Positions 4,006-25,533 of a DNA stretch of 64,000 bases are shown here, piece after piece. This stretch comes from Anaerovorax sp. IOR16 (GTDB lineage Bacteria > Bacillota > Clostridia > Peptostreptococcales > Anaerovoracaceae): positions 558,001 to 622,000 of the forward strand of contig NZ_JADQTL010000009.1 of assembly GCF_017168145.1 (NCBI RefSeq), in the 5' to 3' direction. The notes beneath the pieces were generated by a model. The model ran no database searches and was not told where the DNA came from. It worked only from the letters and a program-made list of their open reading frames with translations. The translations under genes and the position numbers were made by a program. Positions within the stretch are counted from its first letter, which is position 1. The number at the start of each line of letters is the position of its first letter.

Positions 4006-5764
4006 ATTAGATGATTATATAAGACAGCTTGAAAATACTGACGAAGACGTTGAAATAAAACAGGATAAAGAATACCAAAAGAATTTATTCGAGCAATATG
4101 TCACTAAAGGAAATGACCATAAAGAGCTTAGAGCGGAACTGCTAAAGGAGTACCGAAAAGGAGCTTCTCTCACAGGAGAAAAAGGACTAAGAAAAAGACT
4201 GGGAGCCATAGACCTTGCATACTTTGGAAGAGCCTACCTCCCCCACTACTTCATAAGAGAATCTCCTGAGTTTCATAATGAGCTGGATGAAATATGGTCT
4301 AAAGGTGTTTTAAAGGGCATGAATCCCTTTGTATCTTCTAAAAAGATATCAAGGGAAAAAGGATGCAGACGTGGGATAGCTGCTCCTCGTGGACATGCGA
4401 AGTCAACAAACTTCACATTCAAAGACACGCTTCATGCCATAGTTTACGAATACAAGCACTACCCTATTATATTATCTGATAGCTCCGATCAAGCGGAAGG
4501 GTTCCTTGCAGATATCAAAACAGAGCTTGAAGATAACAAGGCTATCCATGAGGACTTTGGAAACTTAAAAGGTAAAAAAGTATGGAAAACAGGAGTTATC
4601 CTCACATCAACAGATATCAAAGTCGAAGCTATCGGCTCAGGGAAAAAGATAAGAGGTAGAAGGCACAGAAACTGGAGACCTGACCTTATCGTCCTTGATG
4701 ATGTTGAGAATGACGAAAATGTAAACACTCCAGAGCAAAGAAAGAAGCTGGAAAACTGGTTTTATAAAGCGGTGTCCAAGGCTGGGGATACATACACAGA
4801 TATTGTCTATATAGGAACAATACTTCACTCAGATTCTTTACTTTCAAAGGTTTTAAGAAATCCTGAATATCACTGTGTAAAATACCGAGGGGTCATCAGC
4901 TTCGCTGAGAACCAAAACCTTTGGGATGTATGGGAAACCATATACACTGACCTTGAAAATCCAGCAAGACAGGAAGATGCCAAGGAGTTCTTTGACGCAA
5001 ACAAGGAAGAAATGCTTGAGGGTACTAGCGTTTTATGGGAGGCAAAGCTTTCATATTACGACTTGATGATAGTAAGAATCTCTGAAGGTGAAGCATCCTT
5101 TAACAGTGAGATTCAGAATGACCCTATTGACCCTGATTCATGTACCTTTAACGAAGAATGGTTCGATTTTTACGAGGATAGTGACGTTGACTTTTCACTT
5201 CCTGACTTTATATTCATTGGTGCAAATGACCCTTCTCTAGGGAAAAACAAGAAAAGTGATACCTCTGCCATCATAGCTCTAGCAAAGAACCTCAAGACTG
5301 GATATATGTATGTGGTTGAGGCAAGCGTTGAAAAAAGGAAACCAGATGCAATCATTGAGGATTCAATTGAAATGCAGAAAAGACTCAAAAGAGATTTTAA
5401 CAAAGGGTTCTTTAAGTTTGGAGTTGAGTCCATTCAGTTCCAGCACTTTTTCAAAGACATAATGGCTGAAAGAAGTCGTCAAGCTGGAGAAATGCTCCCT
5501 ATTGAAGAAATCTACAATTTACAATCAAAGCACCTAAGAATCGAAAGTACACAGCCATTTGTCAAAAACAAATATGTTAAATTTAGCAAGAAACATAAGA
5601 CTTTACTCAAGCAGATGCTTGAATACCCAATGGGCAAAAATGATGATGCTCCTGACACTTTTGAAATGGCTTTAAGAATAGCTCTACAGATAAAAGGCAG
5701 CACAAAGGTAGATTACAAGTCAGTTATCTCAAGAGCCTTAAGATTTAAAAAAGGAGCGTATTAA
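3998..5764 (+). CDS. Large terminase subunit, Mu gp28-like
   Basis: 588 aa DNA-packaging motor. The ATPase half shows an atypical P-loop, APRGHAKST (about residues 128-136), and a Walker B LIVLDDVEND (about 229-238). The C-terminal RNase H-like nuclease begins at FIGANDPSLG (about 406), with the metal-binding Asp in NDPS, followed by SDTSAI; further acidic residues lie near the C terminus. Length is normal for the gp28 family. It overlaps the small subunit upstream and is followed by the portal after 14 bases. In Mu-type phages this enzyme packages by headful from a site in the left end. Confidence 0.9.
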   Translation: MIKLDDYIRQLENTDEDVEIKQDKEYQKNLFEQYVTKGNDHKELRAELLKEYRKGASLTGEKGLRKRLGAIDLAYFGRAYLPHYFIRESPEFHNELDEIWSKGVLKGMNPFVSSKKISREKGCRRGIAAPRGHAKSTNFTFKDTLHAIVYEYKHYPIILSDSSDQAEGFLADIKTELEDNKAIHEDFGNLKGKKVWKTGVILTSTDIKVEAIGSGKKIRGRRHRNWRPDLIVLDDVENDENVNTPEQRKKLENWFYKAVSKAGDTYTDIVYIGTILHSDSLLSKVLRNPEYHCVKYRGVISFAENQNLWDVWETIYTDLENPARQEDAKEFFDANKEEMLEGTSVLWEAKLSYYDLMIVRISEGEASFNSEIQNDPIDPDSCTFNEEWFDFYEDSDVDFSLPDFIFIGANDPSLGKNKKSDTSAIIALAKNLKTGYMYVVEASVEKRKPDAIIEDSIEMQKRLKRDFNKGFFKFGVESIQFQHFFKDIMAERSRQAGEMLPIEEIYNLQSKHLRIESTQPFVKNKYVKFSKKHKTLLKQMLEYPMGKNDDAPDTFEMALRIALQIKGSTKVDYKSVISRALRFKKGAY

Positions 5765-12013: not shown

Positions 12014-12211
12014 ATGGCAGCTAAAAAAGAAGCTGAGGAGCAATTTACAGTTGAAGCCTTGGCAGATGAAATGAAAATTGATACTGCCATCTTTGCTGGT
12101 GTCAAAGCTTTTATGGGCTGGGCAAGTGGCAGAATGGCAACAAAAAAAGAATTTGAAAGTGCTGTAAAGGACTTTCTTGGAGCTCCTCTTAGAGGAAAGG
12201 CGGTGAAATGA
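12014..12211 (+). CDS. Small phage protein before the sheath gene (65 aa)
   Basis: 65 aa, helical, with a Lys-rich start and a FTVEALADEMKIDTAIFAGVKAFMGWASG core. GAGGAGG-type site just upstream. The 4-base overlap with the sheath gene indicates coupling. Mu has a small gene (gp38) in the same place, but I see no clear family match. Function unknown. Confidence 0.6.
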   Translation: MAAKKEAEEQFTVEALADEMKIDTAIFAGVKAFMGWASGRMATKKEFESAVKDFLGAPLRGKAVK

Positions 12212-13620
12212 TGTTAAGAGACGTAAAGATAAATATAACGGATGGAGGTCTTGGAGCTTCCAGCGTTAAAGGTGAAGGAGCACATGTAAAGATTGGAGTA
12301 TCCCCTATTGTCTCAACTGCTCCAATTACCATCACTGGTGGTATGAATGTAAAAAAGATTAAAGAAAAGCTTGGAAACAGTCCCCTTGCAGACAGCTGCA
12401 TGGACAGTGTATCGGCTGGGTCAAATGTTATTTACTGTATACCAGTTCAAGCCTCTACAGATGGAACTGTTGGGGAAATCACCAAGACAGGGACTGGAAA
12501 AGGAACTTGCACAATTGAAGGCAAGCCTAACAATTCCTATGATGTAGAACTTAAATTCATTGAAAGTGGCGGATTTAACAAAGCGACCTTTAAGTATTCC
12601 ATAGATGGTGGTTACATCTTTTCGGATGAAACCACTCTTCCAGTGGGTGGCAGCTTTGAACTTCCTGAAACAGGACTGACTTTGAAATTTACAGAGGATA
12701 CAGATGTGGAGGACTCCTTCATGGCAGATGATGTGATTAAGTTCTCAACCATTGCACCACAGATGACCAATCAGGATGTTTTAAATGCCTTGGATAAGCT
12801 GAAGAACTCAAGCCTTAACTTTGAATACATCCATGTGGTTGGAGAATCCACGAAGGCTCTTTGGGCTGCTTTAGCGGTTGAAGCTGAAAAGTTCTTCAAT
12901 ACCTATTTTAAGCCTATATTCTTTGTTCTTGAGGCTAGAAACAAGAACGCTGATGAAACGGTGGACGAATACGCTCAGAGCCTTATCGCTGAAAGAAAAG
13001 GACTTGTATCCTACTTTATCCAAGTGGTTACTGCAAGAGCCTTATACACCAAAATGGATGGCTCTATAAGGGATGTGAACGGTGCTTCTATTGTATGCGG
13101 TCTATATTCAAGAGCCGATGTTCAGCAGTCTATCGGTGAAACAAGAACCTTCCCTATTTCAGGAATACTGAAGCTTTTACCTGAAGGTATCGAGGACAGT
13201 ATCGGTGCTTTGGATGAAGCAAAGTATCTCACATTCAGGGAGTATGTAGGACTTGAGGGTTTTTATGTAACCAATGCAAGAATGATGGCTCAAGATGGCT
13301 CAGACTATAAATATGCTGAGCGTGTGAGGGTTTCCAATAAGCTCGTAAGAGAAACAAGAAAAGAAGCTCTCCTTCAGATTCAATCTCAAGTAGATATGTC
13401 TGACCCAGAGGGCAGCCTTGAAGCAATCGCTAAATTTATTCAGATTCCTGGGGATACAATGGTAAGACAAAAGGAAATATCTTCAGTAAGAATCATCATC
13501 CCTGAAGGACAGGACATCCTTGGAACTGAAAAACTAGCTTTAAAAATCAGATATATCCCTATTGGATATATCAGAGAAATTGAAATCGACATGGGAATGG
13601 AAAACCCATTACTAAGTTAG
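12208..13620 (+). CDS. Contractile tail sheath protein (Mu L-like)
   Basis: 470 aa. Recognised as a sheath subunit by the middle part (AVEAEKFFNTYFKPIFFVLEARN, VDEYAQSLIAERKGLVSYFIQVV) and the C-terminal KLVRETRKEALLQIQSQVDMSDPEGSLEAIAKFIQIP region with the closing strand IPIGYIREIEIDMGMENPLL. An extra domain of about 110 residues (about 80-195, EITKTGTGKGTCTIEG onwards) is inserted after the N-terminal part. The presence of this gene means the phage has a contractile (myovirus) tail. Confidence 0.88.
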   Translation: MMLRDVKINITDGGLGASSVKGEGAHVKIGVSPIVSTAPITITGGMNVKKIKEKLGNSPLADSCMDSVSAGSNVIYCIPVQASTDGTVGEITKTGTGKGTCTIEGKPNNSYDVELKFIESGGFNKATFKYSIDGGYIFSDETTLPVGGSFELPETGLTLKFTEDTDVEDSFMADDVIKFSTIAPQMTNQDVLNALDKLKNSSLNFEYIHVVGESTKALWAALAVEAEKFFNTYFKPIFFVLEARNKNADETVDEYAQSLIAERKGLVSYFIQVVTARALYTKMDGSIRDVNGASIVCGLYSRADVQQSIGETRTFPISGILKLLPEGIEDSIGALDEAKYLTFREYVGLEGFYVTNARMMAQDGSDYKYAERVRVSNKLVRETRKEALLQIQSQVDMSDPEGSLEAIAKFIQIPGDTMVRQKEISSVRIIIPEGQDILGTEKLALKIRYIPIGYIREIEIDMGMENPLLS

Positions 13621-14115: not shown

Positions 14116-14475
14116 ATGGAAAACAAAGAAAAGGATTTATTAAAAAAGGACTTAAATGTTGAAGAGCTTAAGAAGAAATACGGAAAGGTTTATGAGGTTA
14201 AAGCAGAAATCGAGCCAGAGGGTGAATTTGAGACTGTGGAGCTGATTTATTACTTTGTAAAACCGAAAGCACCTTCTTTCAACAGATACATCAAGACTGT
14301 ATCTCAAAACAGCATGAAAGCAACCAAAACCTTTGTAATAGACAACATTGTTGAAGAGCAGCTTGCAGATATTGAGGATAAGTTTGAGAAGTACCCTGCT
14401 CTTTGCATAGGTATTGGAGAGAAACTTCTTAATATGTTAGGGCTACCTAAGTCAACAAATTTCAAGCTACTTTAG
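14116..14475 (+). CDS. Tail assembly chaperone, upstream frame (Mu gp41-like)
   Basis: 119 aa if started at ATG 14116, which has AGGAGGT (14101-14107) 8 bases upstream; a longer frame reaches back to ATG 14083 but lacks a site. The C-terminal LADIEDKFEKYPALCIGIGEKLLNMLGLP is typical of the E-type tail chaperone. The gene ends inside a -1 slippery sequence and is followed by an open -1 frame without a good start. The short form acts together with the frameshifted form to bind the tape measure during tail assembly. Confidence 0.85.
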   Translation: MENKEKDLLKKDLNVEELKKKYGKVYEVKAEIEPEGEFETVELIYYFVKPKAPSFNRYIKTVSQNSMKATKTFVIDNIVEEQLADIEDKFEKYPALCIGIGEKLLNMLGLPKSTNFKLL

Positions 14476-14690
14476 AGGAACATCTATGGAGTATTAAAAA
14501 GAACTTCATAGAAGCTGGAACAATTGAAATCATGAAATATGTTCCTCTAAAGCTGCTAAAAAAAGACTTGAACGATATGGATATAGACGAGTTTATGGAG
14601 GCTCTTGCTAAAGCTAGATACATTCAGGAAATAGAAGAAAACATAATGGCAAGAGCTATATCCAAGGTTTTTGCTGAAAGGGGGGATTAG
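14116..14690 (+). CDS. Frameshift product of the tail assembly chaperone (G-GT/Mu gp41-type, about 191 aa)
   Basis: The zero frame runs to TTC 14461-14463, then a -1 shift gives a 75-residue extension (14463-14687) rich in charge and helix: EEHLWSIKKNFIEAGTIEI, LLKKDLNDMDIDEFMEALAKA, ending FAERGD. The extension has no plausible independent start except an ATG at 14532 without a strong site. A frameshifted chaperone fusion immediately before the tape measure gene is conserved across long-tailed phages, and Mu has one at the same place. Ratio and efficiency are unknown. Confidence 0.75.
14457..14463 (+). promoter_or_regulatory. -1 programmed frameshift slippery heptamer AAATTTC
   Basis: A AAT TTC in the zero frame fits the X XXY YYZ rule for tandem -1 slippage and lies 9 bases before the zero-frame stop (TAG 14473-14475). 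After slipping, translation continues in the open -1 frame with CAA GCT ACT TTA to a TAG at 14688-14690. No stimulatory structure was verified. Confidence 0.8.
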
Positions 14691-14693
14691 AGT

Positions 14694-17147
14694 GTGAGTT
14701 TGGAATCAGTATTCAGATTATCAGTCATTGTCAGTATGATTGACAACCTATCAGGTCCGACTGCGAGGATAAACCAAAGCTTAGACCAAACCATTGGCAG
14801 ACTTGAAAGAGCTGAGCAGGGCTTTTCTGATATGACAAAATCAGGAATGGCTATGGGACTACTTGGAAAAGAACTCGCATCAGTAGCACTCTCCCCTGTT
14901 GAAGCAACCTTTGAAACAAAGAAAGCTTTAGGAGAGCTTAGCTCTGTAGGAATTCAAGACCTTAAAGCTCTCGAACAAGCAGGGAAACAATTCTCTGACA
15001 CATGGGCTGGAACCACAAAAGCTGACTTTATAGCTGCGGCTTATGATATTAAGTCAGGAATATCCACTCTTAGTGATACCTCGGTAGCTGAATATACGAA
15101 AATAGCTGGTATCACAGCGAAAGGAACTAAATCATCAATTGATGAAATGACTTCTCTGTTTGCTACTGGATACGGTATTTACAAAAAATATTACTCTGAA
15201 ATGAGCGACTTAGAATTTGGAGAAATGTTTTCTGCTGGTATTTCGTTAGCTGTAGAAAGATATAAAACAAAAGGTTCTGAAATGGCTAGCTCTATTCAGA
15301 CTTTAGGGGCGGCTGCCACTTCGGCACAAGTACCCCTCGAAGAACAATTATCTATACTTGGGACGTTACAGAGGTCTATGTCTGGAAGTGAAGCAGGAAC
15401 AAAGTATAAAGCTTTCTTGAAAAGTGCTGCCAAGGCTGGAGACGAACTGGGGTTATCCTTCTTGGATGCAAATAACCAGCTTCGTTCCATGCCGGAGATT
15501 ATAGCTGAATTACAAGGTAAATATGGTGATACTGTTGATGCTATAGAAAAAATGGAATTACAAGATGCTTTTGGCACACAAGAAGCTGTAGACTTAATTT
15601 CGTTGCTATACGACCAAACGGATTTATTGCAGTCTAGTATCGTTGATATGTATGATTCAATGGGTCAAGGGATTGACGTTGCAAAACTTATGGCTGATGC
15701 AATAAACCAGACGGAGGGCGAACAGTATGAATTGTTAAAACAAAAGATTCACAATGTTAAAGAGGAAATAGGCAATCAGCTCCTACCAACATTTATGGAT
15801 ATGTTGAACAAAGGATTTGAAATTCTGTCATGGTTAAGTAAGTGGATAGACGAGAACCAAACTGCTGTCAAATGGATTATGCATATAGTCTTGGCTTTGG
15901 GAACTGCCTTGATGGTATTTGGAGCTTTCAACCTCGTTGTAGGTGGTGCTGGATTAGTTGTCACTAAAACTATTGGAAACTTTAAAAAGCTTGCTGGTGC
16001 TATTCGAGGTATACCAAGTCTGTTTGAAACCATGCAAATACGAGCCATGTACGCTGGTGATGCTATTAAAAATGGATTTACAAGCATAAAAACCTTTGCT
16101 TCATCAGCAGTAACTGGAATCAAGAGTGTGGCAACATCAATCATTCAGATGGGTAAAGCAGCCATTATCAATGGAGCTAATGCCATCAAGCAGATGGTTC
16201 TTGGCATGGTGAATATGGCAAGACAGGCAGTTGTCACAGCAGTTCAAGCAATGCCAGGACTAATAGCTTCGGTATGGTCTTTCACTGCTGCACTTCTGGC
16301 AAACCCTATCACTTGGGTAATAATTGGAATTGTCGCTCTTATAGCAGCATTAGTGCTGTTATGGCAAAATTGGGATTCTGTTGTATCCTTCTTGACTGGT
16401 GTGTGGAATGCTGCTGTTGAGGGTGTAATTGGAGCTTTCAACTGGATAAAAGAAAAGGTCGCATCTATGCCGAATGGCTTTGTGGCACTTATAGCAGCTA
16501 TCTTCCCATTTATCGGAATACCAATGCTGATATTTAAAAACTGGGGCAAGATAAAAGCCTTCTTCTCTGACATATGGAATGGCATAAAAACAGGCTTTAC
16601 AAACTTCTTTACAAACTTCTTGCCTAATGTTTTGAATTCAGGAAAGAAGATTATGGAGACCTTGGCAAGTGGTATCAAAAAGACCATATCAGCACCAGTG
16701 GACATGGTTAAAAGCGGATTATCGAAAATCAGGAAACTACTTCCTTTCAGTGATGCCAAAGAGGGTCCGCTCTCTACCCTTACCCTTTCAGGTAAGCGTG
16801 TGTTTGAGACTATTAACACAGGTATGATGAAGACAAAGCATCTGCCTGCTGAGACAACAAAGGAAGCCTTCAAAGGTATTGACTTAAATTATGAGGATGC
16901 AACCGAGGGCAATGACTACTCTATGGAACCAAGGAAAGTCGAAAAGGTTTCGCTAAGAGAGATATCCAAGGAGCGTGAAGCTCAGTACAAAGAAGAATCA
17001 ACCAAGGAGAAAAACGAAGGTACAAAGCAATATATCAATATCAATGTTGATATAGAGAAAATCAAAGAGCTTCCTCTACTGGTGAAGCTCCTGAAGGAAA
17101 TTGAGGATTATAACAACTCAAACAATCCAGAACCAAGCAATGCATAA
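14694..17147 (+). CDS. Tail tape measure protein
   Basis: 817 aa, the longest phage gene, starting GTG 14694 after GGGGGG. It has the TP901-type tape measure core (AYDIKSGISTLSDTSVAEYTKIAGITAKGTKSSIDEMTSLFATGYG, LGAAATSAQVPLEEQLSILGTLQ) in residues about 75-330, followed by several hydrophobic stretches (about 400-430, 535-560, 595-620) that probably insert in the host membrane at DNA ejection. Its length sets tail length. The C terminus is charged and ends in an INVDIEKIKELPLLVKLLKEIE helix. Confidence 0.92.
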   Translation: MSLESVFRLSVIVSMIDNLSGPTARINQSLDQTIGRLERAEQGFSDMTKSGMAMGLLGKELASVALSPVEATFETKKALGELSSVGIQDLKALEQAGKQFSDTWAGTTKADFIAAAYDIKSGISTLSDTSVAEYTKIAGITAKGTKSSIDEMTSLFATGYGIYKKYYSEMSDLEFGEMFSAGISLAVERYKTKGSEMASSIQTLGAAATSAQVPLEEQLSILGTLQRSMSGSEAGTKYKAFLKSAAKAGDELGLSFLDANNQLRSMPEIIAELQGKYGDTVDAIEKMELQDAFGTQEAVDLISLLYDQTDLLQSSIVDMYDSMGQGIDVAKLMADAINQTEGEQYELLKQKIHNVKEEIGNQLLPTFMDMLNKGFEILSWLSKWIDENQTAVKWIMHIVLALGTALMVFGAFNLVVGGAGLVVTKTIGNFKKLAGAIRGIPSLFETMQIRAMYAGDAIKNGFTSIKTFASSAVTGIKSVATSIIQMGKAAIINGANAIKQMVLGMVNMARQAVVTAVQAMPGLIASVWSFTAALLANPITWVIIGIVALIAALVLLWQNWDSVVSFLTGVWNAAVEGVIGAFNWIKEKVASMPNGFVALIAAIFPFIGIPMLIFKNWGKIKAFFSDIWNGIKTGFTNFFTNFLPNVLNSGKKIMETLASGIKKTISAPVDMVKSGLSKIRKLLPFSDAKEGPLSTLTLSGKRVFETINTGMMKTKHLPAETTKEAFKGIDLNYEDATEGNDYSMEPRKVEKVSLREISKEREAQYKEESTKEKNEGTKQYININVDIEKIKELPLLVKLLKEIEDYNNSNNPEPSNA

Positions 17148-18866: not shown

Positions 18867-19273
18867 TGGCAGGACTTTATGACACTGATATAAGGCTTGA
18901 TGAATTGAAAATCGCAAAGGCAGCCAATGGGGATGCAGCTTTAATCTCTGACTTTGAATGCCTTCAGCAAGACATACAATGTGAAGCTCTCACTCAAGAA
19001 AAAGAAGTCTTCTATGATGAAGAATATGGCTGGTCTCTTCTGGACTTCATACAGGCTCAGGATGACGAGCTCACAAGAACTGAAATGAAACAAAGGATAA
19101 TCACAAAGCTTGGCAAGCGACAAGAGGTGGACATTGATTCAATTAAGATAAAAATAACCAATCAAGAAGATAGATTCCTGATAAATGTAAAATTTAGATG
19201 CATTGACTATCAGGAAGAAGCGGAGCTTGACCTCGCTCTTGATAGGGTTAAAGCAGAGGTGGTGATTGTGTAA
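18863..19273 (+). CDS. Baseplate wedge protein, gp46/DUF2634 (GpW/gp25-like)
   Basis: 136 aa. Family features are the start LYDTDIRLDELKIAKAANGDAALISDFECLQQDIQCEALTQ and the central EYGWSLLDFIQAQDDE. This lysozyme-fold-like wedge component of contractile tails regularly precedes the gp47 J-like protein, as here. ATGA overlap with the preceding gene at 18863-18866. Confidence 0.85.
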   Translation: MMAGLYDTDIRLDELKIAKAANGDAALISDFECLQQDIQCEALTQEKEVFYDEEYGWSLLDFIQAQDDELTRTEMKQRIITKLGKRQEVDIDSIKIKITNQEDRFLINVKFRCIDYQEEAELDLALDRVKAEVVIV

Positions 19274-20403
19274 TGATGGACGAGAAAATCCTTGACGAGG
19301 TTATCCCTGTACCTGACAGAGAAGAACTTAAAAATCAGATAGTAAATGAGCTTGAAGATGAAGGCTTTGACATAACCAATTTTAGTAGTGGCGGTATATT
19401 CTTCACAATTATCATGATATTCATTCAGATAAGAATTGAGCTTGTGAAGCTCCTTAGAACTGTTTTATCAAATATGTTTGTCTCTTCAGCAAAAGGAATA
19501 TGGTTAGAGCTCAAGGGTGCTGACTACTCAAAGAAAAAGAAAGACCCAACAAAGACCAGAGGAAATGTGACTTTGAAAAGAACCACAGCAGGCACAAGCA
19601 TAAAGATACCTCAAGGGTATGTCTTTAAGACAGAGCAGGACATCAACGGTGAAGAGTTCGCCTTTATAGTTCTTGAAGATGTAATGATGGGAAAAGATGA
19701 CCTTACTGTTAAGGTGCTTGTGGAAGCTGAAAAGGAAGGCAGCAAGTACAACCTTCCTTCAGGACAGATTAAAAAGTCCTTGATTCATATTGAAGGCATA
19801 GACGAAATTACCAACGAGGTCGGCTGGATCACTCAGGAAGGAAGTGACCTCGAAGATGAGGAAAGCTTCAGGGAAAGAACCTTAAACTCATGGGCGGAGC
19901 TTTCAGCCTACCCTATCAGAGATAAATACAAAAATGTTTGTGAAGCAGTACCAGGCGTACTATTTGCCACAGTGGATGACATGCATCCAAGGGGTCAAGG
20001 GACGGTCGATATTATCATCACTTCCACTGCTGGAGAAGCTACTCAAAGTCTTCTTGATGAAGTCAAAGAAGCAGCGGACAAGATTAAGGCTCCTTATGAT
20101 AACCTACTGGTTAAATCGGCTCAGGTAGTCACACAGGACTTAAATGTGACCTTGTATATCTCTTCCCTTTCTGATGATACAGGACTTGAGGAAAAGGCAA
20201 TGTCAACGATTATAGAGGCATTTAAGAGGACAAAGAATAGGAACCTTAATGAGTTCTATAAGTCGGACTTGATTTTCGCATTAAAGAAGGATATTGACAT
20301 CCTGAAGAACATCAAAATCAATACTCCTGCTGATGATGTCATTTTAGAAAATGATAAGGTTATCGTTCTTGGGAATGTAGACCTTACTATTGAGAAGGTG
20401 TAA
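19273..20403 (+). CDS. Baseplate J-like protein (Mu gp47)
   Basis: 376 aa. Typical J-like pattern: GIFFTIIMIFIQIRIELVKLLRTVLSNMFVSSAKGIWLELKGADYSKKKKDPTKTRGNVTL near residues 40-100, a beta region with IPQGYVFKTEQD, then FRERTLNSWAELSAYPIRDKYKNVCEAVPGV. J-like proteins form the baseplate wedge. Start overlaps the stop of the gp46-like gene. Confidence 0.9.
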   Translation: MMDEKILDEVIPVPDREELKNQIVNELEDEGFDITNFSSGGIFFTIIMIFIQIRIELVKLLRTVLSNMFVSSAKGIWLELKGADYSKKKKDPTKTRGNVTLKRTTAGTSIKIPQGYVFKTEQDINGEEFAFIVLEDVMMGKDDLTVKVLVEAEKEGSKYNLPSGQIKKSLIHIEGIDEITNEVGWITQEGSDLEDEESFRERTLNSWAELSAYPIRDKYKNVCEAVPGVLFATVDDMHPRGQGTVDIIITSTAGEATQSLLDEVKEAADKIKAPYDNLLVKSAQVVTQDLNVTLYISSLSDDTGLEEKAMSTIIEAFKRTKNRNLNEFYKSDLIFALKKDIDILKNIKINTPADDVILENDKVIVLGNVDLTIEKV

Positions 20404-20407
20404 GGCT

Positions 20408-21241
20408 ATGTTTGAAAAGTTTAAGGATTACATGTTTTATCTGCTTCATAGTCCGCTTAAGAAGGTCTCAAAACAAAAGAACCAGTTTTATATACTCTTC
20501 AAAGTGCTGGGTAAGATATTTGACCATACCAAGGAAGATATCTTCAAAGTAAGAGAACAATCTATGATTGTGAGTGCTTCAGGAAAGATGCTTGATGAAC
20601 ATGGCAAAGACCGAGGAATGAAGCGACTGCCCTATGAGGATGATGATTACTACAGAAACAGGCTGATGCTTAAAAAGGTCATTGCTGAGAAGGCTGGAAC
20701 CAACGAAGGAATCCTTCTAGCTCTTAGAGCTATGGGATATGAAAACTCATATATTGAACCATTCTATATGACGGATGCTGAGAGATGGGCTGAATTCATT
20801 GTCTATCTAAACAGCAAGGAACCTAGTAAAATGGATAATCTTACTGTTATTGATAGCGAGATTATGAAAGTAAAGGCAGCAGGCTCCAAGCCATCTTATG
20901 GTCTTGCATCTGCTGAAGATATTCAAATTAAAACAGAAGGCAAGCTTTATCCCTTTAAGTATCCATTATGCAATACGATACTTTGCGGAACGTATCCTGA
21001 TGAAGCGACCCTTGGAAGAATAAACAAAGCCGATATCGGTGTAAATGGTGAGTATAAGGCAACAGATAACCCAGAGCCATTCTGTGGCGATATTGCATCT
21101 TCTGAAGCTATATATCAAGAATACAAATACACTGATTTTAATGGACATAATGCAGAGATTGAAGTTGATACAAGCCAAGTGAACACAGTAAAACAATACA
21201 ATCTTTGTGGAGTGTGTCATTCTGGGGAGGTGAAGGTGTAA
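20408..21241 (+). CDS. Tail protein gp48/DUF2313 (gpI)-like
   Basis: 277 aa from ATG 20408; GAAGGTG just upstream supports this start over an upstream TTG. The N-terminal half (LLHSPLKKVSKQKNQFYILFKVLGKIFDHTKEDIFKVREQSMIVSASGKMLDEHGKDRGMKRLPYEDDDYYRNRL) matches phage baseplate gpI/gp48 proteins that link baseplate and fibres. The C-terminal 100 residues contain four cysteines, in LCNTILCGTYP and LCGVCHSG, which may bind a metal or form disulfides. Confidence 0.78.
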   Translation: MFEKFKDYMFYLLHSPLKKVSKQKNQFYILFKVLGKIFDHTKEDIFKVREQSMIVSASGKMLDEHGKDRGMKRLPYEDDDYYRNRLMLKKVIAEKAGTNEGILLALRAMGYENSYIEPFYMTDAERWAEFIVYLNSKEPSKMDNLTVIDSEIMKVKAAGSKPSYGLASAEDIQIKTEGKLYPFKYPLCNTILCGTYPDEATLGRINKADIGVNGEYKATDNPEPFCGDIASSEAIYQEYKYTDFNGHNAEIEVDTSQVNTVKQYNLCGVCHSGEVKV

Positions 21242-21538
21242 ATGATTACTTCAAATGGATTTAATAAAATAGCAAACTTGATTAAAGAGACTATCTCTCA
21301 TGGAACTTATCAATTAAATGGTTCAACAAAGACCACACAGATTTATAAGACCAGTGTTGAAGCGAATGTTTTAAAAATCTATCTGTATTTTGATGATGTG
21401 GAATCAGGAAGTTTTTCCAAGTTCCAGCTCGTTGATACGGATGGAAATGTATTCGCTGAAAAGCCAGATAATATCTCAAAGCCAAACACAAAAGGGCTCT
21501 TAGTTCTCTTTAAATTCACGATTACGGAGGTGCGATGA
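21242..21538 (+). CDS. Phage tail-tip/fibre-region protein (98 aa)
   Basis: Small beta-rich protein with no clear family. Starts directly after the gp48-like stop and overlaps the next gene by four bases. Its place between baseplate and receptor-binding genes suggests a structural role at the tail tip. Function inferred from position only. Confidence 0.55.
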   Translation: MITSNGFNKIANLIKETISHGTYQLNGSTKTTQIYKTSVEANVLKIYLYFDDVESGSFSKFQLVDTDGNVFAEKPDNISKPNTKGLLVLFKFTITEVR

Positions 21539-21981
21539 TGATTTATGATAAGACGATATGGGTTGACCATGTAGTTGACTCAGATACTGGCGAAGTCATT
21601 CAGCAGGGAACTCCTATCTCAGAGAATAGGCTCAATAAAAGTGAGGATGGAATCTTTGAAAACAGAGAGCTTACATCCCTTGAAATGCAGCAGATTCTTG
21701 AATTGAAGAGAAATGCAGAAAACTTCAATGTAGAGATAGGAAGCGTTACTCTAAGCAACAGCCAAGCTTATCCTTTTAATAATTCAAAGATTACCATTGC
21801 TTTGAAGAAGCCAAGAAACTCACTTGATTATGAAATTTCAACAGAGCTTGTGAGCTCCAATGGTGAAGCTGGTGACGTGATTGTAAGTGATAAGCAGACA
21901 AACGGATTCAAGCTTGAATTTACAGGGAGTGCGACTGCTGCAACAGTTAAATATTTTGTTAAAGGAGGCATTTATTCATGA
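21535..21981 (+). CDS. Phage tail fibre-region protein (148 aa)
   Basis: N-terminal IYDKTIWVDHVVDSDTGEVIQQGTPISENRLNKSEDGIFENRE is a pattern seen at the start of fibre-associated proteins that attach to the baseplate; the remainder is beta-rich. GGAGGTGCG stands right before the ATG. Probable fibre or fibre-adaptor protein; not assignable more precisely. Confidence 0.55.
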   Translation: MMIYDKTIWVDHVVDSDTGEVIQQGTPISENRLNKSEDGIFENRELTSLEMQQILELKRNAENFNVEIGSVTLSNSQAYPFNNSKITIALKKPRNSLDYEISTELVSSNGEAGDVIVSDKQTNGFKLEFTGSATAATVKYFVKGGIYS

Positions 21982-22313
21982 ATGTTATAGAAAAGACAGA
22001 AGGTACTAAGATTAGTCACAGCATCATGGGTGATACAATTCTAGTCCTTGAGGAAGAATTGTATTTGAACCTTGAGAAATATCAAAGGGATTACCCAGTC
22101 CACATTGACATCAGTAGAAATGAATTCAACATGTTGGTCATGGGAACATCAAGAGAGTATGTGGCACAGATAGACATACCAGAAAAGACATATAGAATGG
22201 TGGACACTGGCAAGACAACCGAGGAAGGAACACCAATCATGGAGAAGGTTCATGATGAATTTGACATGAATACAGTAACTTTAACTTTGTGGGGAGGAAA
22301 TGCAAATGTCTAA
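21978..22313 (+). CDS. Phage protein preceding the DGR target (111 aa)
   Basis: Soluble 111-residue protein, beta-rich, overlapping its neighbours by 4 and 8 bases. It lies immediately before the diversified gene, so it may link that protein to the tail. I do not recognise the family. Confidence 0.5.
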   Translation: MNVIEKTEGTKISHSIMGDTILVLEEELYLNLEKYQRDYPVHIDISRNEFNMLVMGTSREYVAQIDIPEKTYRMVDTGKTTEEGTPIMEKVHDEFDMNTVTLTLWGGNANV

Positions 22314-23460
22314 GTTTGATAGTTTAAAATTGTCTGTTGAGGCACTCTCAGGAGGAAAAAACACAGTTGTACTTGATGACCTTGGGATGCCTTCAGTAAT
22401 GGTTAGGATACCAAAATTCAACTTATCTGATGTGATTGACGGTGCTCCTAATACAACGCATCCAGCCTTTATCGTGGATGGTGTTGTTAAGGATGAAATC
22501 CTGATATCTAAGTATCAAAACATAGTTGTAAATGATAGAGCTTACTCACTTCCAATGAAAGACCCTAGAGTCTATGTGAACTTTGACCAAGCGGTGCAAT
22601 ACTGCAAAAACAAAGGGGCAGGCTGGCATCTTATGACGAATGCTGAATGGACTGCAATAGCCTTATGGTGCAAGAAAAACGGATACATGCCAAGGGGTAA
22701 CAATTATTGTGGAGGTGAACACAGTGCACTACATGAGGTCGGAGTTCAAACTTACGATTGGTTACTAGACTATAACTGGAACAACAGAGCCAATGAATTT
22801 GATGGCACTAAATATCATCATACTGGTAGAGTTGCAACTGGTTCAGGTTCAGCAGCATGGGCTCATGATGGAACAAATGAAGGTATATTCGACTTGAACG
22901 GTAATGTCTGGGAGTGGACTGCTGGACTAAGACTTAAGAATGGTGAAATACAGATTGTAAAGGACAATGATGCTGCAATGGCAAACGCTGACTTTGGAGA
23001 TACAAGCTCTTGGTGGAAAGCTGTCTTACAGGATGGTAATTTGGCAGCACCAGGCACAGCTTCAACTCTTAAAATTGACAATACAACTCCTGGTACTGCG
23101 GACAAAGATGGAAACAATGTAGGAGGAGACCCAATCATAAATACTGTAAGGGATAATCCTAACTACACTGGTGGAGATGTTAACGAATACTATAGATACA
23201 GCCATTGTAATTTTGAGACTTTAGCTGCTAAGAGCGGTGTAACAGTACCGACGTTGTTAAAAGCTTTAGGGATTGCTCCAGTAGATGCTTCGTGTGGAGG
23301 AGATGGCTTCTGGGTTCGTAACTACGGAGAAAGGCTTCCGTTTCGTGGTGGCGGCTGGGGCCACGGTTCTGCTGCTGGGGTTTTCGCCTTGAACTTGCAC
23401 TACCTTCGTTCGTACTCGGGCAACAACTTTGGTTTCCGCTCCGCTTTTGTCAATCTGTAA
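22306..23460 (+). CDS. DGR target: variable receptor-binding protein with C-type-lectin (FGE-sulfatase) fold
   Basis: 384 aa from ATG 22306 (GGAGG 8 bases upstream; the ATG at 22300 is too close to it). The FGE-sulfatase/formylglycine-generating-enzyme-like C-lectin fold is evident from GAGWHLMTNAEWTAIALWCKKNGYMPRGNN, FDLNGNVWEWTAGLRL and the closing RGG...GFRSAFV. This is the fold used by known DGR-variable proteins. The last 37 codons are the variable repeat, so diversified residues fall at the lectin ligand site. No signal peptide. As the last tail-module gene it is probably the phage receptor-binding tip. Confidence 0.93.
   Translation: MSKFDSLKLSVEALSGGKNTVVLDDLGMPSVMVRIPKFNLSDVIDGAPNTTHPAFIVDGVVKDEILISKYQNIVVNDRAYSLPMKDPRVYVNFDQAVQYCKNKGAGWHLMTNAEWTAIALWCKKNGYMPRGNNYCGGEHSALHEVGVQTYDWLLDYNWNNRANEFDGTKYHHTGRVATGSGSAAWAHDGTNEGIFDLNGNVWEWTAGLRLKNGEIQIVKDNDAAMANADFGDTSSWWKAVLQDGNLAAPGTASTLKIDNTTPGTADKDGNNVGGDPIINTVRDNPNYTGGDVNEYYRYSHCNFETLAAKSGVTVPTLLKALGIAPVDASCGGDGFWVRNYGERLPFRGGGWGHGSAAGVFALNLHYLRSYSGNNFGFRSAFVNL
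23334..23445 (+). repeat. DGR variable repeat (VR)
   Basis: 112 bases at the 3' end of the target gene, matched to the template repeat 569 bases downstream. Twelve differences, every one at a template adenine (1 to 5 A replaced near the start, then dispersed); no difference at G, C or T positions. The last 15 bases (23431-23445) are identical and GC-rich, matching an initiation-of-mutagenic-homing region. Ten codons are changed: Ile to Phe (twice), Asn to Gly (twice), Asn to His (twice), Asn to Tyr (twice), Asp to Ala, Ser to Gly. Confidence 0.97.
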
Positions 23461-23481
23461 TCTGCTTTCTGTTAATCTGAT

Positions 23482-23503
23482 AGGGAGAGCGATAGCTCTC
23501 CTT
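23482..23503 (+). promoter_or_regulatory. Hairpin/cruciform just after the DGR target gene
   Basis: AGGGAGAGC (23482-23490), loop GATA, GCTCTCCTT (23495-23503): a 9-bp stem with one G-T pair and a tetraloop, 36 bases after the VR end. DGRs often carry a short GC-rich hairpin downstream of VR that enhances mutagenic homing. A weak T-rich stretch follows (CTTAACTTTTT), so it might double as a transcription terminator for the target gene. Confidence 0.75.
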
Positions 23504-23531
23504 AACTTTTTGTATAAGTGAGGATGAAGTA

Positions 23532-23873
23532 ATGAACGAACTAAAAATATATCAAAAAGTTTATGACATGATAGTTTATGGTAATAAATGCTTACTTCAA
23601 TTTCCTAAGTCTGAAAGGTACGCTCTTGCAAATGAGATAAAGAAATCAATGTATTCTCTCTTGAAGCTGATTATTGCAGCAAATAAGAAATATTATAAAA
23701 AGACCACTCTTCAGGAGATGGATGTGGAGCTTGAAACATTGAGGACTTTCATAAGAATTGCAGCAGACCCAAAATTCAAGTATTTAGGATTAAAACAGTA
23801 TGAAAATTGGAGCAAAATGTTGAGTGAAATCGGTCGCATGTTAGGCGGCTGGATGAAATCAGTAAATAGATAA
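23532..23873 (+). CDS. avd: DGR accessory variability determinant (Avd)
   Basis: 113 aa, all-helical, basic. Avd proteins form a pentamer of four-helix bundles that binds the reverse transcriptase and template RNA and is required for mutagenic reverse transcription. Size, helix pattern (MNELKIYQKVYDMIVYGNKCLLQFPKSERYALANEIK onwards, with a conserved-looking FPKSERY), high positive charge and location between VR and TR all fit. GAGGATG precedes the ATG. Confidence 0.9.
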   Translation: MNELKIYQKVYDMIVYGNKCLLQFPKSERYALANEIKKSMYSLLKLIIAANKKYYKKTTLQEMDVELETLRTFIRIAADPKFKYLGLKQYENWSKMLSEIGRMLGGWMKSVNR

Positions 23874-23902
23874 ATACAAGTTTTGGGGGATGAGCCTATT
23901 GA

Positions 23903-24014
23903 GCTTCCGATTCGTGGTGGCAACTGGAACAACGGTTCTGATGCTGGGGTTTTCGCCTTGAACTTGAACAACCTTCGTTCGAACTCGAGCAACAACATTG
24001 GTTTCCGCTCCGCT
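23903..24014 (+). repeat. DGR template repeat (TR)
   Basis: 112 bases between avd and the reverse transcriptase. Contains 22 adenines, 18 of them in nine AAC codons when read in the VR frame; AAC-rich templates allow wide amino-acid change without making stop codons. It is transcribed as part of the template RNA and copied with adenine-specific errors into VR. Read as protein the same frame gives an open stretch of about 75 codons, but it has no start signal and is not a gene. Confidence 0.97.
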
Positions 24015-24190
24015 CTGCTCTCATTGTCAGATGTTGCAAGCTCAAGGGCTTGCATCCAGTACAGAGAGGACAAAGGGGCTCATTTCCCTGCTGACAAAGC
24101 AAAATATTAAATTGCTATGGAAGCACCAAGTAAGAAATGAAAAGTGCTACACATAGCCATATGACTAATTATTATGAGGAAGTGTGCTTT

Positions 24191-25276
24191 ATGGCTAAAA
24201 AACTAAGAAATATATTTTCTGAAATAATAGACTTTGAAAATCTTTATATAGCAACAAATGAAGCAAAGAAAGGCAAACGATACAGACGTGATGTACTGGA
24301 GTTCAATACAAACCTTGAAGAGAATTTAATCACGATTCAAAATGAATTAATATATAAGACTTATGAGGTTGGTAGGTATAGAGAATTCTTTGTCTATGAC
24401 CCTAAAAAGCGGTTAATAATGGCATTACCCTTTAAGGACAGAGTTGTCCAATGGGCTATATACAGGGTCTTATATCCGATATATGACAAGCAATTCATTT
24501 ATGATAGTTATGGGTGCAGAGTTGGAAAAGGTACTCATAAGGCTGCTGATAGGCTTCAATATTGGTTAAGGCAAGTAAACAGGAAGCCACAGAAATACTA
24601 TTATTTAAAACTGGATATATCAAAATATTTCTACAGGATTAATCATAAAATACTATTGGATATCCTGAAAAATAAGATTGAGGATGAAGACCTTATTTGG
24701 CTTTTAGATACGATTATAAACAGTGAAGATGTTCCTTTTGGACTTCCTGCTGGAATGGAGCCTGACCAATGCAGTGAAGAAGATAGGCTTTTTGATGTAG
24801 GGATACCGATAGGAAATTTAACCTCTCAGCTATTCGCTAACATATATCTCAATGAGCTTGACCAGTATGTTAAGCATAAGCTTGGAATACACTACTATGT
24901 AAGATACATGGATGATATAATAATACTGGCAGATGATAAAAAATACTTACATGAGATTAAAACCGATATTGAAGTATTCTTAAAAGAAGTTCTCGACCTA
25001 GACTTGAATAATAAGACCGCTATAAGACCCATATCGTGCGGTATTGAGTTTGTAGGCTTTAGAGTATGGGCTACACATAGAAAACTAAAGAAAAAGACCT
25101 TAAAGAAGATTAAGAGGAAGTTTAAAATGCTTCAGAAAGCTTATTCGGAAGGTTCTAAGGACTTTGAAGAGATAAACCAGTCCGTACAGTCATATCTTGG
25201 TATCATGCAGCATTTTGACAGTTATAACTTCAAGGCTAAGCTGTTGAATGATACTATATTCAGGAGGGACAACTAG
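24191..25276 (+). CDS. DGR reverse transcriptase (bRT)
   Basis: 362 aa from ATG 24191, with GAGGAAG 8 bases upstream; an earlier in-frame ATG at 24137 lacks a site. RT palm motif YMDD at about residues 239-242 (24905-24916) and the DGR-class motif IGNLTSQ (about 207-213, 24809-24829), where other bacterial RTs have QG. The FKDRVVQWAIY and KLDISKYF regions supply the finger and first catalytic Asp. The C-terminal thumb is basic. It copies TR RNA with adenine mutagenesis and replaces VR. All catalytic residues are intact, so the system should be functional. Confidence 0.96.
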   Translation: MAKKLRNIFSEIIDFENLYIATNEAKKGKRYRRDVLEFNTNLEENLITIQNELIYKTYEVGRYREFFVYDPKKRLIMALPFKDRVVQWAIYRVLYPIYDKQFIYDSYGCRVGKGTHKAADRLQYWLRQVNRKPQKYYYLKLDISKYFYRINHKILLDILKNKIEDEDLIWLLDTIINSEDVPFGLPAGMEPDQCSEEDRLFDVGIPIGNLTSQLFANIYLNELDQYVKHKLGIHYYVRYMDDIIILADDKKYLHEIKTDIEVFLKEVLDLDLNNKTAIRPISCGIEFVGFRVWATHRKLKKKTLKKIKRKFKMLQKAYSEGSKDFEEINQSVQSYLGIMQHFDSYNFKAKLLNDTIFRRDN

Positions 25277-25533
25277 GAACCAATAATCTCAAACTAAGTG
25301 GCAAAAAACTAAAAATCTCACGCTATGGCAGATATGAAAAGTTTGCCAAAAAGCGTGAGAAGATTTGCCAAAAAATTTTCGAAGCTACAGATATAATGCT
25401 CAAAAACAGTATGAATGCACGTAAAATATACGAAACAATAGATAATTCCAGTTTTAAATTATTTTATATGCCTCATGGGAGAATAATGATGCATAAATAC
25501 GAAGTGGGATGTGTTAGCGAGGTAAAATTCTAA
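25258..25533 (+). CDS. Small phage ORF after the reverse transcriptase, start unresolved
   Basis: An open frame of about 90 codons follows the bRT stop by overlap and ends with TAA 25531-25533. It encodes a basic peptide including [20 protein letters not shown] and [23 protein letters not shown] at 25262-25267 looks like its ribosome binding site, but no ATG/GTG/TTG lies at the expected distance; the first in-frame ATG is some 40 codons in. It may use a rare start, have lost its start, or be a remnant. No family recognised. A 9-bp inverted repeat (25316-25324 and 25352-25360) lies inside it. Confidence 0.4.

Follow-up and report, generated by a model that had tools for sequence, protein, structure and literature searches.

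Bordetella phage BPP-1 carries a diversity-generating retroelement (DGR) in which the variable repeat (VR) of a tail gene is followed by avd, the template repeat (TR) and the reverse transcriptase (RT) gene, with a GRNA-loop hairpin and mutagenesis directed at adenines. Here we analyzed a 64,000-nt stretch of the Anaerovorax sp. IOR16 genome (genome G000, contig C9, 558001-622000; hereafter the window, whose positions are used unless a contig is given), in which 22306-25276 is a genuine, complete DGR of known kind that has each of these features. BPP-1 itself is a podovirus with an integrase, unlike the phage of the window, and its variable protein Mtd is weakly similar in structure to the target described here. 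We consider it very probable that the element still functions as a DGR, or did so until very recently, within the tail-tip module at the right end of a transposable phage with a contractile tail.

Other transposable phages that carry DGRs have been published, and a DGR with the same gene order is on record in the Bacillus phage BalMu-1 (NC_030945, KP063903). BalMu-1 has a MuA-like transposase as well as an XkdT-type baseplate gene, small genes, a SUMF1/formylglycine-generating enzyme (FGE) target, Avd, and RT. Its RT is 61% identical to that of the window, and 10 of its 11 VR/TR mismatches lie at A. Holin and endolysin genes come after the BalMu-1 RT, whereas the RT is the last gene of the phage in the window, and the transposases are 29.5% identical over 64% of the query. 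A literature search on BalMu-1 returned nothing on-topic by title and abstract start.

Hankyphage of Bacteroides is presented, in the available parts of PMC6199706 and PMC12135933, as a temperate phage that transposes, leaves 5-bp duplications, and carries a DGR, with identical TRs, different VRs, and DGR activity seen in reads. The same sources set it apart from the present phage by its other host group, its flexible siphovirus-type tail (first report), and its very large target protein. Two Faecalibacterium phages are covered by the accessible portions of PMC5883640 and PMC11792537. Lagaffe has an FGE target, Avd, and an RT 52.5% identical to that of the window but an IS30-type enzyme for integration and cos ends, whereas Mushu is transposable and carries a DGR but with a Hoc-like target. 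For prophage phi3 of Clostridium clostridioforme LM41, compared by description only, FGE-type genes, Avd, and RT are listed in the available part of PMC11318856, which holds no description of it as transposable. Finally, TaqVP, from a Thermus aquaticus prophage DGR and thus another host, is a near full-length homolog of the target and was compared as a protein alone.

The DGR cassette and its target protein

All parts of the cassette lie on the plus strand. The target gene (22306..23460, with an alternative ATG at 22300) encodes 384 aa with an FGE-sulfatase domain (PF03781) and contains the 112-nt VR at 23334..23445. The DGR hairpin follows 38 nt past the VR (23484..23501; GGAGAGC-GATA-GCTCTCC), with a 7-bp stem and a GATA loop of the GRNA type. 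Next come avd (23532..23873; 113 aa, bAvd PF22296, E 3.9e-36), the 112-nt TR with its 22 adenines (23903..24014), and the RT gene (24191..25276; 361 aa), for which an upstream ATG would place the start at 24137. Every reading frame is open, and the order of target with VR, hairpin, avd, TR, and RT is the canonical one that a preliminary description of this DNA had claimed.

The RT matches PF00078 (E 2.7e-24) and phrog_1423 and contains IGNLTSQ and YMDD, which we take to be motifs of the DGR class, in keeping with the class first assigned to it. The closest solved structure by sequence is 8ub7, presumably the BPP-1 DGR RT. The two nearest named RT relatives (L041 and L059) are from Bacillota. 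In genomes of the same family, relatives at E <= 1e-60 were found in 2 of 295 others, with identities of 38% and 41%.

The repeat pair bears an adenine signature. The 12 mismatches between VR and TR, in 112 positions, are without exception at TR adenines (chance 1.5e-10), and the repeats agree at all 90 non-adenine positions. In the VR frame, the 22 TR adenines occupy codon positions 1 (12) and 2 (10), with none at position 3. The final 17 nt of the two repeats are identical, a stretch that is a candidate for the initiation of mutagenic homing region (IMH in the VR, IMH* in the TR). A GRNA-loop hairpin was found within 160 nt after the VR in 21 of 45 loci with a VR (the window and near-duplicate loci included) as against 4 of 2250 shuffled stretches. 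Such a hairpin 3′ of the VR is a usual DGR feature according to the available text of PMC4372165.

The target aligns over nearly its full length with 5VF4 (E 6.8e-82), which the accessible part of PMC6328139 describes as TaqVP, the variable protein of the T. aquaticus prophage DGR. An AlphaFold2 model built from a 22-sequence homolog alignment (predicted local distance difference test score 84.8) was compared by Foldseek, giving a template modeling score of 0.86 to 5vf4_C, 0.28 to Mtd of BPP-1, and weak similarity to predicted tail-collar fibers. As modeled, the target is an FGE-type C-type-lectin DGR target of the TaqVP fold, and the VR spans residues 343-380 of 384, at the C-terminus of that fold.

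We presume that the target occupies a tail-tip slot, because it has this TaqVP-like FGE C-type-lectin fold, because its gene lies after those for baseplate J (19273..20403, PF04865) and a gpI/Gp48-like baseplate protein (20390..21241), both on the plus strand, and because a sister phage without a DGR (L105) has a tail-collar fiber gene there. This agrees with the tail-module placement in the preliminary description. By analogy with BPP-1, the RT and Avd would copy TR RNA with errors at adenines, and the resulting cDNA would replace the VR of the target gene. As the VR encodes the predicted variable face of the TaqVP-like domain, sister virions would then carry different binding faces. The target may bind a receptor and affect host range, which the preliminary description supposed to shift in real time. 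The target could instead be some other virion surface protein, for example one adhering to mucus or debris, with diversification serving adhesion rather than host range. We regard this as rather unlikely given the place of the gene behind baseplate J and gpI, the fiber gene that fills the slot in L105, and a fold that is that of TaqVP with weak similarity to Mtd.

VR alleles and adenine-directed variation

A search of the host genome with the RT gave seven matches. Three are near-identical copies, two are fragments of one further DGR RT that is less closely related, and the remaining two, both on contig C8, are weak. The three copies are the window (copy A), a second site on C9 (copy B, L030, in the region C9:1090222-1091538), and one on C8 (copy C). 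The RT is open in all three, and the RT frameshifts that had been named beforehand as a sign against the proposal were not seen. Copies B and C were considered as cases of independent DGR mobility, an idea we rejected since both share the phage right end with the window copy.

Copy B is a truncated remnant that holds a different allele. Outside the repeat it differs from the window at 2 positions in 2,339 bp, both no more than 11 bp from its left junction. The one repeat that it contains has three changes relative to the TR, all at adenines (chance 0.007), and 12 relative to the window VR. Judged from these sequences, the different VR allele suggests that the element worked recently. The avd gene and the hairpin are missing, VR and TR are merged into one repeat, and the adjoining RT is intact. 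On the minus strand of C9 (1090222-1091538; L030:4222-5538), about 49 aa of another gene are fused in frame to the DGR target to give a chimera of 438 aa, with the fusion beginning 64 bp into the target gene. Sequences weakly matching the foreign N-terminus were found in 3 of 196 other genomes, and plasmids yielded no homolog. Genes for a polyvalent-protein domain (LPD11) and a MazE-like protein are the neighbors of copy B.

Several observations weigh against recent activity. The VRs at the right ends of both insertions of the phage, in the window and on C8, are identical, and no diversification is seen between them. Copy C departs from the window at two points, a one-base gap in its target gene and a single substitution in its RT; the gap sits 253 nt from the contig end, where faulty assembly may have produced it. 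Faulty assembly may also account in part for copy B, whose merged repeat may have arisen by collapse, because VR and TR would share about 73 nt there. Elsewhere, the near-identical pairs L024/L025, L064/L065, and BalMu-1 copies 1 and 2 (5,567 bp compared) each have one common VR. The identical VRs, the gap in copy C, and the dead-looking copy B in the same genome would all fit a recent fossil, that is, a DGR that produced its VR in the past and is now silent or dead in this lineage. Nevertheless, we think a fossil improbable: the RT, Avd, TR, hairpin, and target of the window are all intact, VR and TR have not drifted apart at any non-adenine position, and the copy B allele has changed from the TR at adenines only, in almost unchanged surroundings.

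Related loci also favor a working or very recently working element. Among the 45 related genome loci, 39 contain an adenine-biased repeat pair, and 483 of 500 mismatches lie at an A of one copy; under the rule used, no such bias was found in the other six (L056, L062, L067, L083, L084, and L085). Three loci labeled Lachnospiraceae or unclassified (L049, L050, and L051) are about 98% identical, with TRs that are identical or two changes apart, and their VRs differ pairwise at 15-17 of 113 positions. Both TR changes of L051 recur in its own VR, as predicted by TR-to-VR copying. Where TRs are identical or almost so, the VR alleles differ mainly at template adenines, and the lack of adenine-directed variation that the preliminary description had weighed as a contrary outcome was not seen. 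Viral contigs searched with the VR/TR pattern, with N at adenines, gave 0 matches, a search from which records very near the window genome may be excluded.

Two of these loci deserve separate mention. L064 and L065 are 13-kb copies that sit together on a single contig of a genome from a roe deer omasum metagenome; they are 99.95% identical and share their DGR and VR. In L062 (Aneurinibacillus), a DGR-like repeat pair has 14 mismatches, of which 6 fall at A of the second copy and 3 at A of the first; this pair is perhaps decaying.

The host genome contains a further DGR, locus D, on C9 at about 331784-335127 (L016:3784-7127), with avd, TR (4161), RT (4395-5447), and a target with an internal VR (6059). 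It lies in another apparent prophage of the same host and is a relative of the immunoglobulin (Ig)-type DGR found in the viral locus L091 described below (RT 65%, Avd 74%, and target 48% identical over 319 aa), and no MuA match was found in the 30 kb around it. The two weak RT matches on C8 (L006 and L007; 36% and 30%) lie in open reading frames of 607 and 630 aa, sizes that we take to be typical of group II intron proteins.

The transposable prophage and its two insertions

The prophage starts outside the window, to its left, where a MuA-like transposase (phrog_310, E 9.3e-110) and a MuB-like gene (phrog_296, E 1.6e-40) are encoded. Terminase, portal, major head, and tail sheath genes lie inside the window, the last at 12208..13620 on the plus strand (phrog_907, E 7.2e-72). 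Behind the gpI gene come three small tail genes (21242..22313, plus strand) and then the DGR, which forms the right-end module. The phage right end spans 25342..25389 on the plus strand, contains two TTTGCCAAAAA sites, and terminates in ...AAGCTACA, with host DNA from 25390. The boundary at 25389 is common to copies A, B, and C. With ends of the form TGTAG...CTACA and 5-bp target duplications at two sites, the phage is, as far as its genes and termini tell, Mu-like, transposable, and contractile-tailed, as had been proposed; the sheath and baseplate J genes point to the contractile tail.

The picture of a Mu-like prophage holds, with one correction that concerns contig C9. Pairing of the host flanks gives a first insertion between C9:550511 (left) and C8:322178 (right), with the duplication ATATA, and a second between C12:15805 (left) and window position 25390 (right), with the duplication GATAT. 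Because of this pairing, the left and right ends on C9 come from different prophages, which C9 appears to connect through a stretch in which the two are near-identical. The junction may be an assembly join or a real recombination. A 6-bp duplication, GATATA, was also considered for the window prophage and rejected, since each of the 5-bp pairings restores a gene frame. Pfam matches on the joined host genes are weak and below the curated cut-offs: PNPOx_N had an E value of 7.4e-4 with the proposed partner versus 1.5e-3 with the other, and Ada_Zn_binding 0.031 with the proposed partner versus no match otherwise. In an empty-site control with a genome of the same genus (G088), two of three flanks had no match and the third had short matches only.

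Contigs C8 and C12 both stop inside the prophage. On C12 (1-15804; L029), the second prophage is about 91% identical to the first, with unmatched stretches, in its left, probably regulatory part and 95-100% identical further in.

Probable exchange of the right-end module among sister phages

Using baseplate J, we found 19 viral loci in IMG/VR. One of them, L091, matches the prophage at 93.4% identity along 9.6 kb, as far as position 20906 within the gpI gene. When this stretch is binned at 250 bp, most bins exceed 0.9 identity, but portions of 14250-16000 (the tape-measure gene) fall to 0.65-0.80. Identity is 0.39-0.62 from 20750 to the right end, where the final 48 bp match again at 90%; the same right end is present in L092. 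The collapse near 20906 marks the left edge of the swapped module.

The L091 module is a DGR of the other type. We distinguish two types, one with an FGE target and the VR before the RT, the other with an Ig-domain target and the VR after the RT. In L091, Avd and RT are 36% and 40% identical to those of the window, a 629-aa Ig-domain target follows the RT, and the TR lies ahead of the RT; all 8 mismatches fall at TR adenines. The modules of L092, L093, and L102 resemble it, and in these the first copy has an adenine at 7 of 13, 4 of 4, and 10 of 10 mismatched positions, respectively. This change of DGR type between phages that share a backbone is the least expected part of the analysis.

Eight of the 19 viral loci contain the FGE target at least in part (L094, L095, L096, L098, L099, L104, L106, and L107; L094, L099, and L104 end within it). 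Five have Ig-type RT and Avd (L091, L092, L093, L102, and L109, the last ending before the target), and six have neither module type (L097, L100, L101, L103, L105, and L108), although L100, L101, and L103 may merely be cut and the phage right end is unconfirmed in L097, L105, and L108. In L105 the slot holds a tail-collar fiber gene (PF12571) above the Pfam cut-off, and in L108 one of the same family below it; the slot proteins tested from L097 and L101 matched no Pfam family. The last of the three small tail genes, directly before the target (21978-22313), accompanies the FGE-type module: its homologs occur in all 8 FGE-type viral loci and in none of the 11 others.

Could the difference between the window and L091 be an assembly join of two phages rather than natural module exchange? 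C9 does link two insertions, and IMG/VR contigs include metagenome assemblies. We nonetheless consider such a join very improbable, as the phage right end that closes the window module is common to copies A, B, and C, L091 and L092 each carry the other module with that right end, and the gene before the target is specific to FGE-type phages.

A baseplate J tree of 18 sequences (15 of the 19 viral loci, L041, L059, and the window; L096, a near-copy of L095, and the undecided L100, L101, and L103 were left out) groups the window with L091 and L092 at 100/100. Its starred branches force at least three changes of the Ig label. Shuffled labels matched the observed clustering in 28 of 500 shuffles for Ig, 128 of 500 for FGE, 500 of 500 for no DGR, and 19 of 200 for all together. 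The tree supports module exchange but says little on frequency, because shuffled labels often cluster as strongly; it gives no sign, in either direction, of a strong tie between module type and backbone. A literature search, in which most candidates were judged by title or abstract start, found no report of DGR module exchange, and the available text of PMC8144416 contains none of six exchange-type words.

Natural module exchange would act on a slower scale than mutagenesis, with everything from the last part of gpI to the right terminus traded as a unit for other tail-tip modules, one of them with a different DGR. We lean towards a reading in which phages of this family have a docking site at their right end, where self-diversifying modules of either DGR type, or plain fibers, can replace one another. 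Fast hypermutation would be layered on slower replacement of the system, and prophages residing in the same cell could serve as recombination partners.

New here are the two insertions with 5-bp duplications, the VR allele of copy B, the different DGR type in the same slot of a sister phage, and the fiber gene in a sister without a DGR. Transposable phages thereby gain a clearly bounded member whose ends are known exactly, which is inserted twice in the same host and which bears a DGR where the tail tip is presumed to be encoded. One relative, nearly identical in its backbone, has the other DGR type, and more distant relatives have none visible, so the family offers a clean comparison of what the DGR module contributes.

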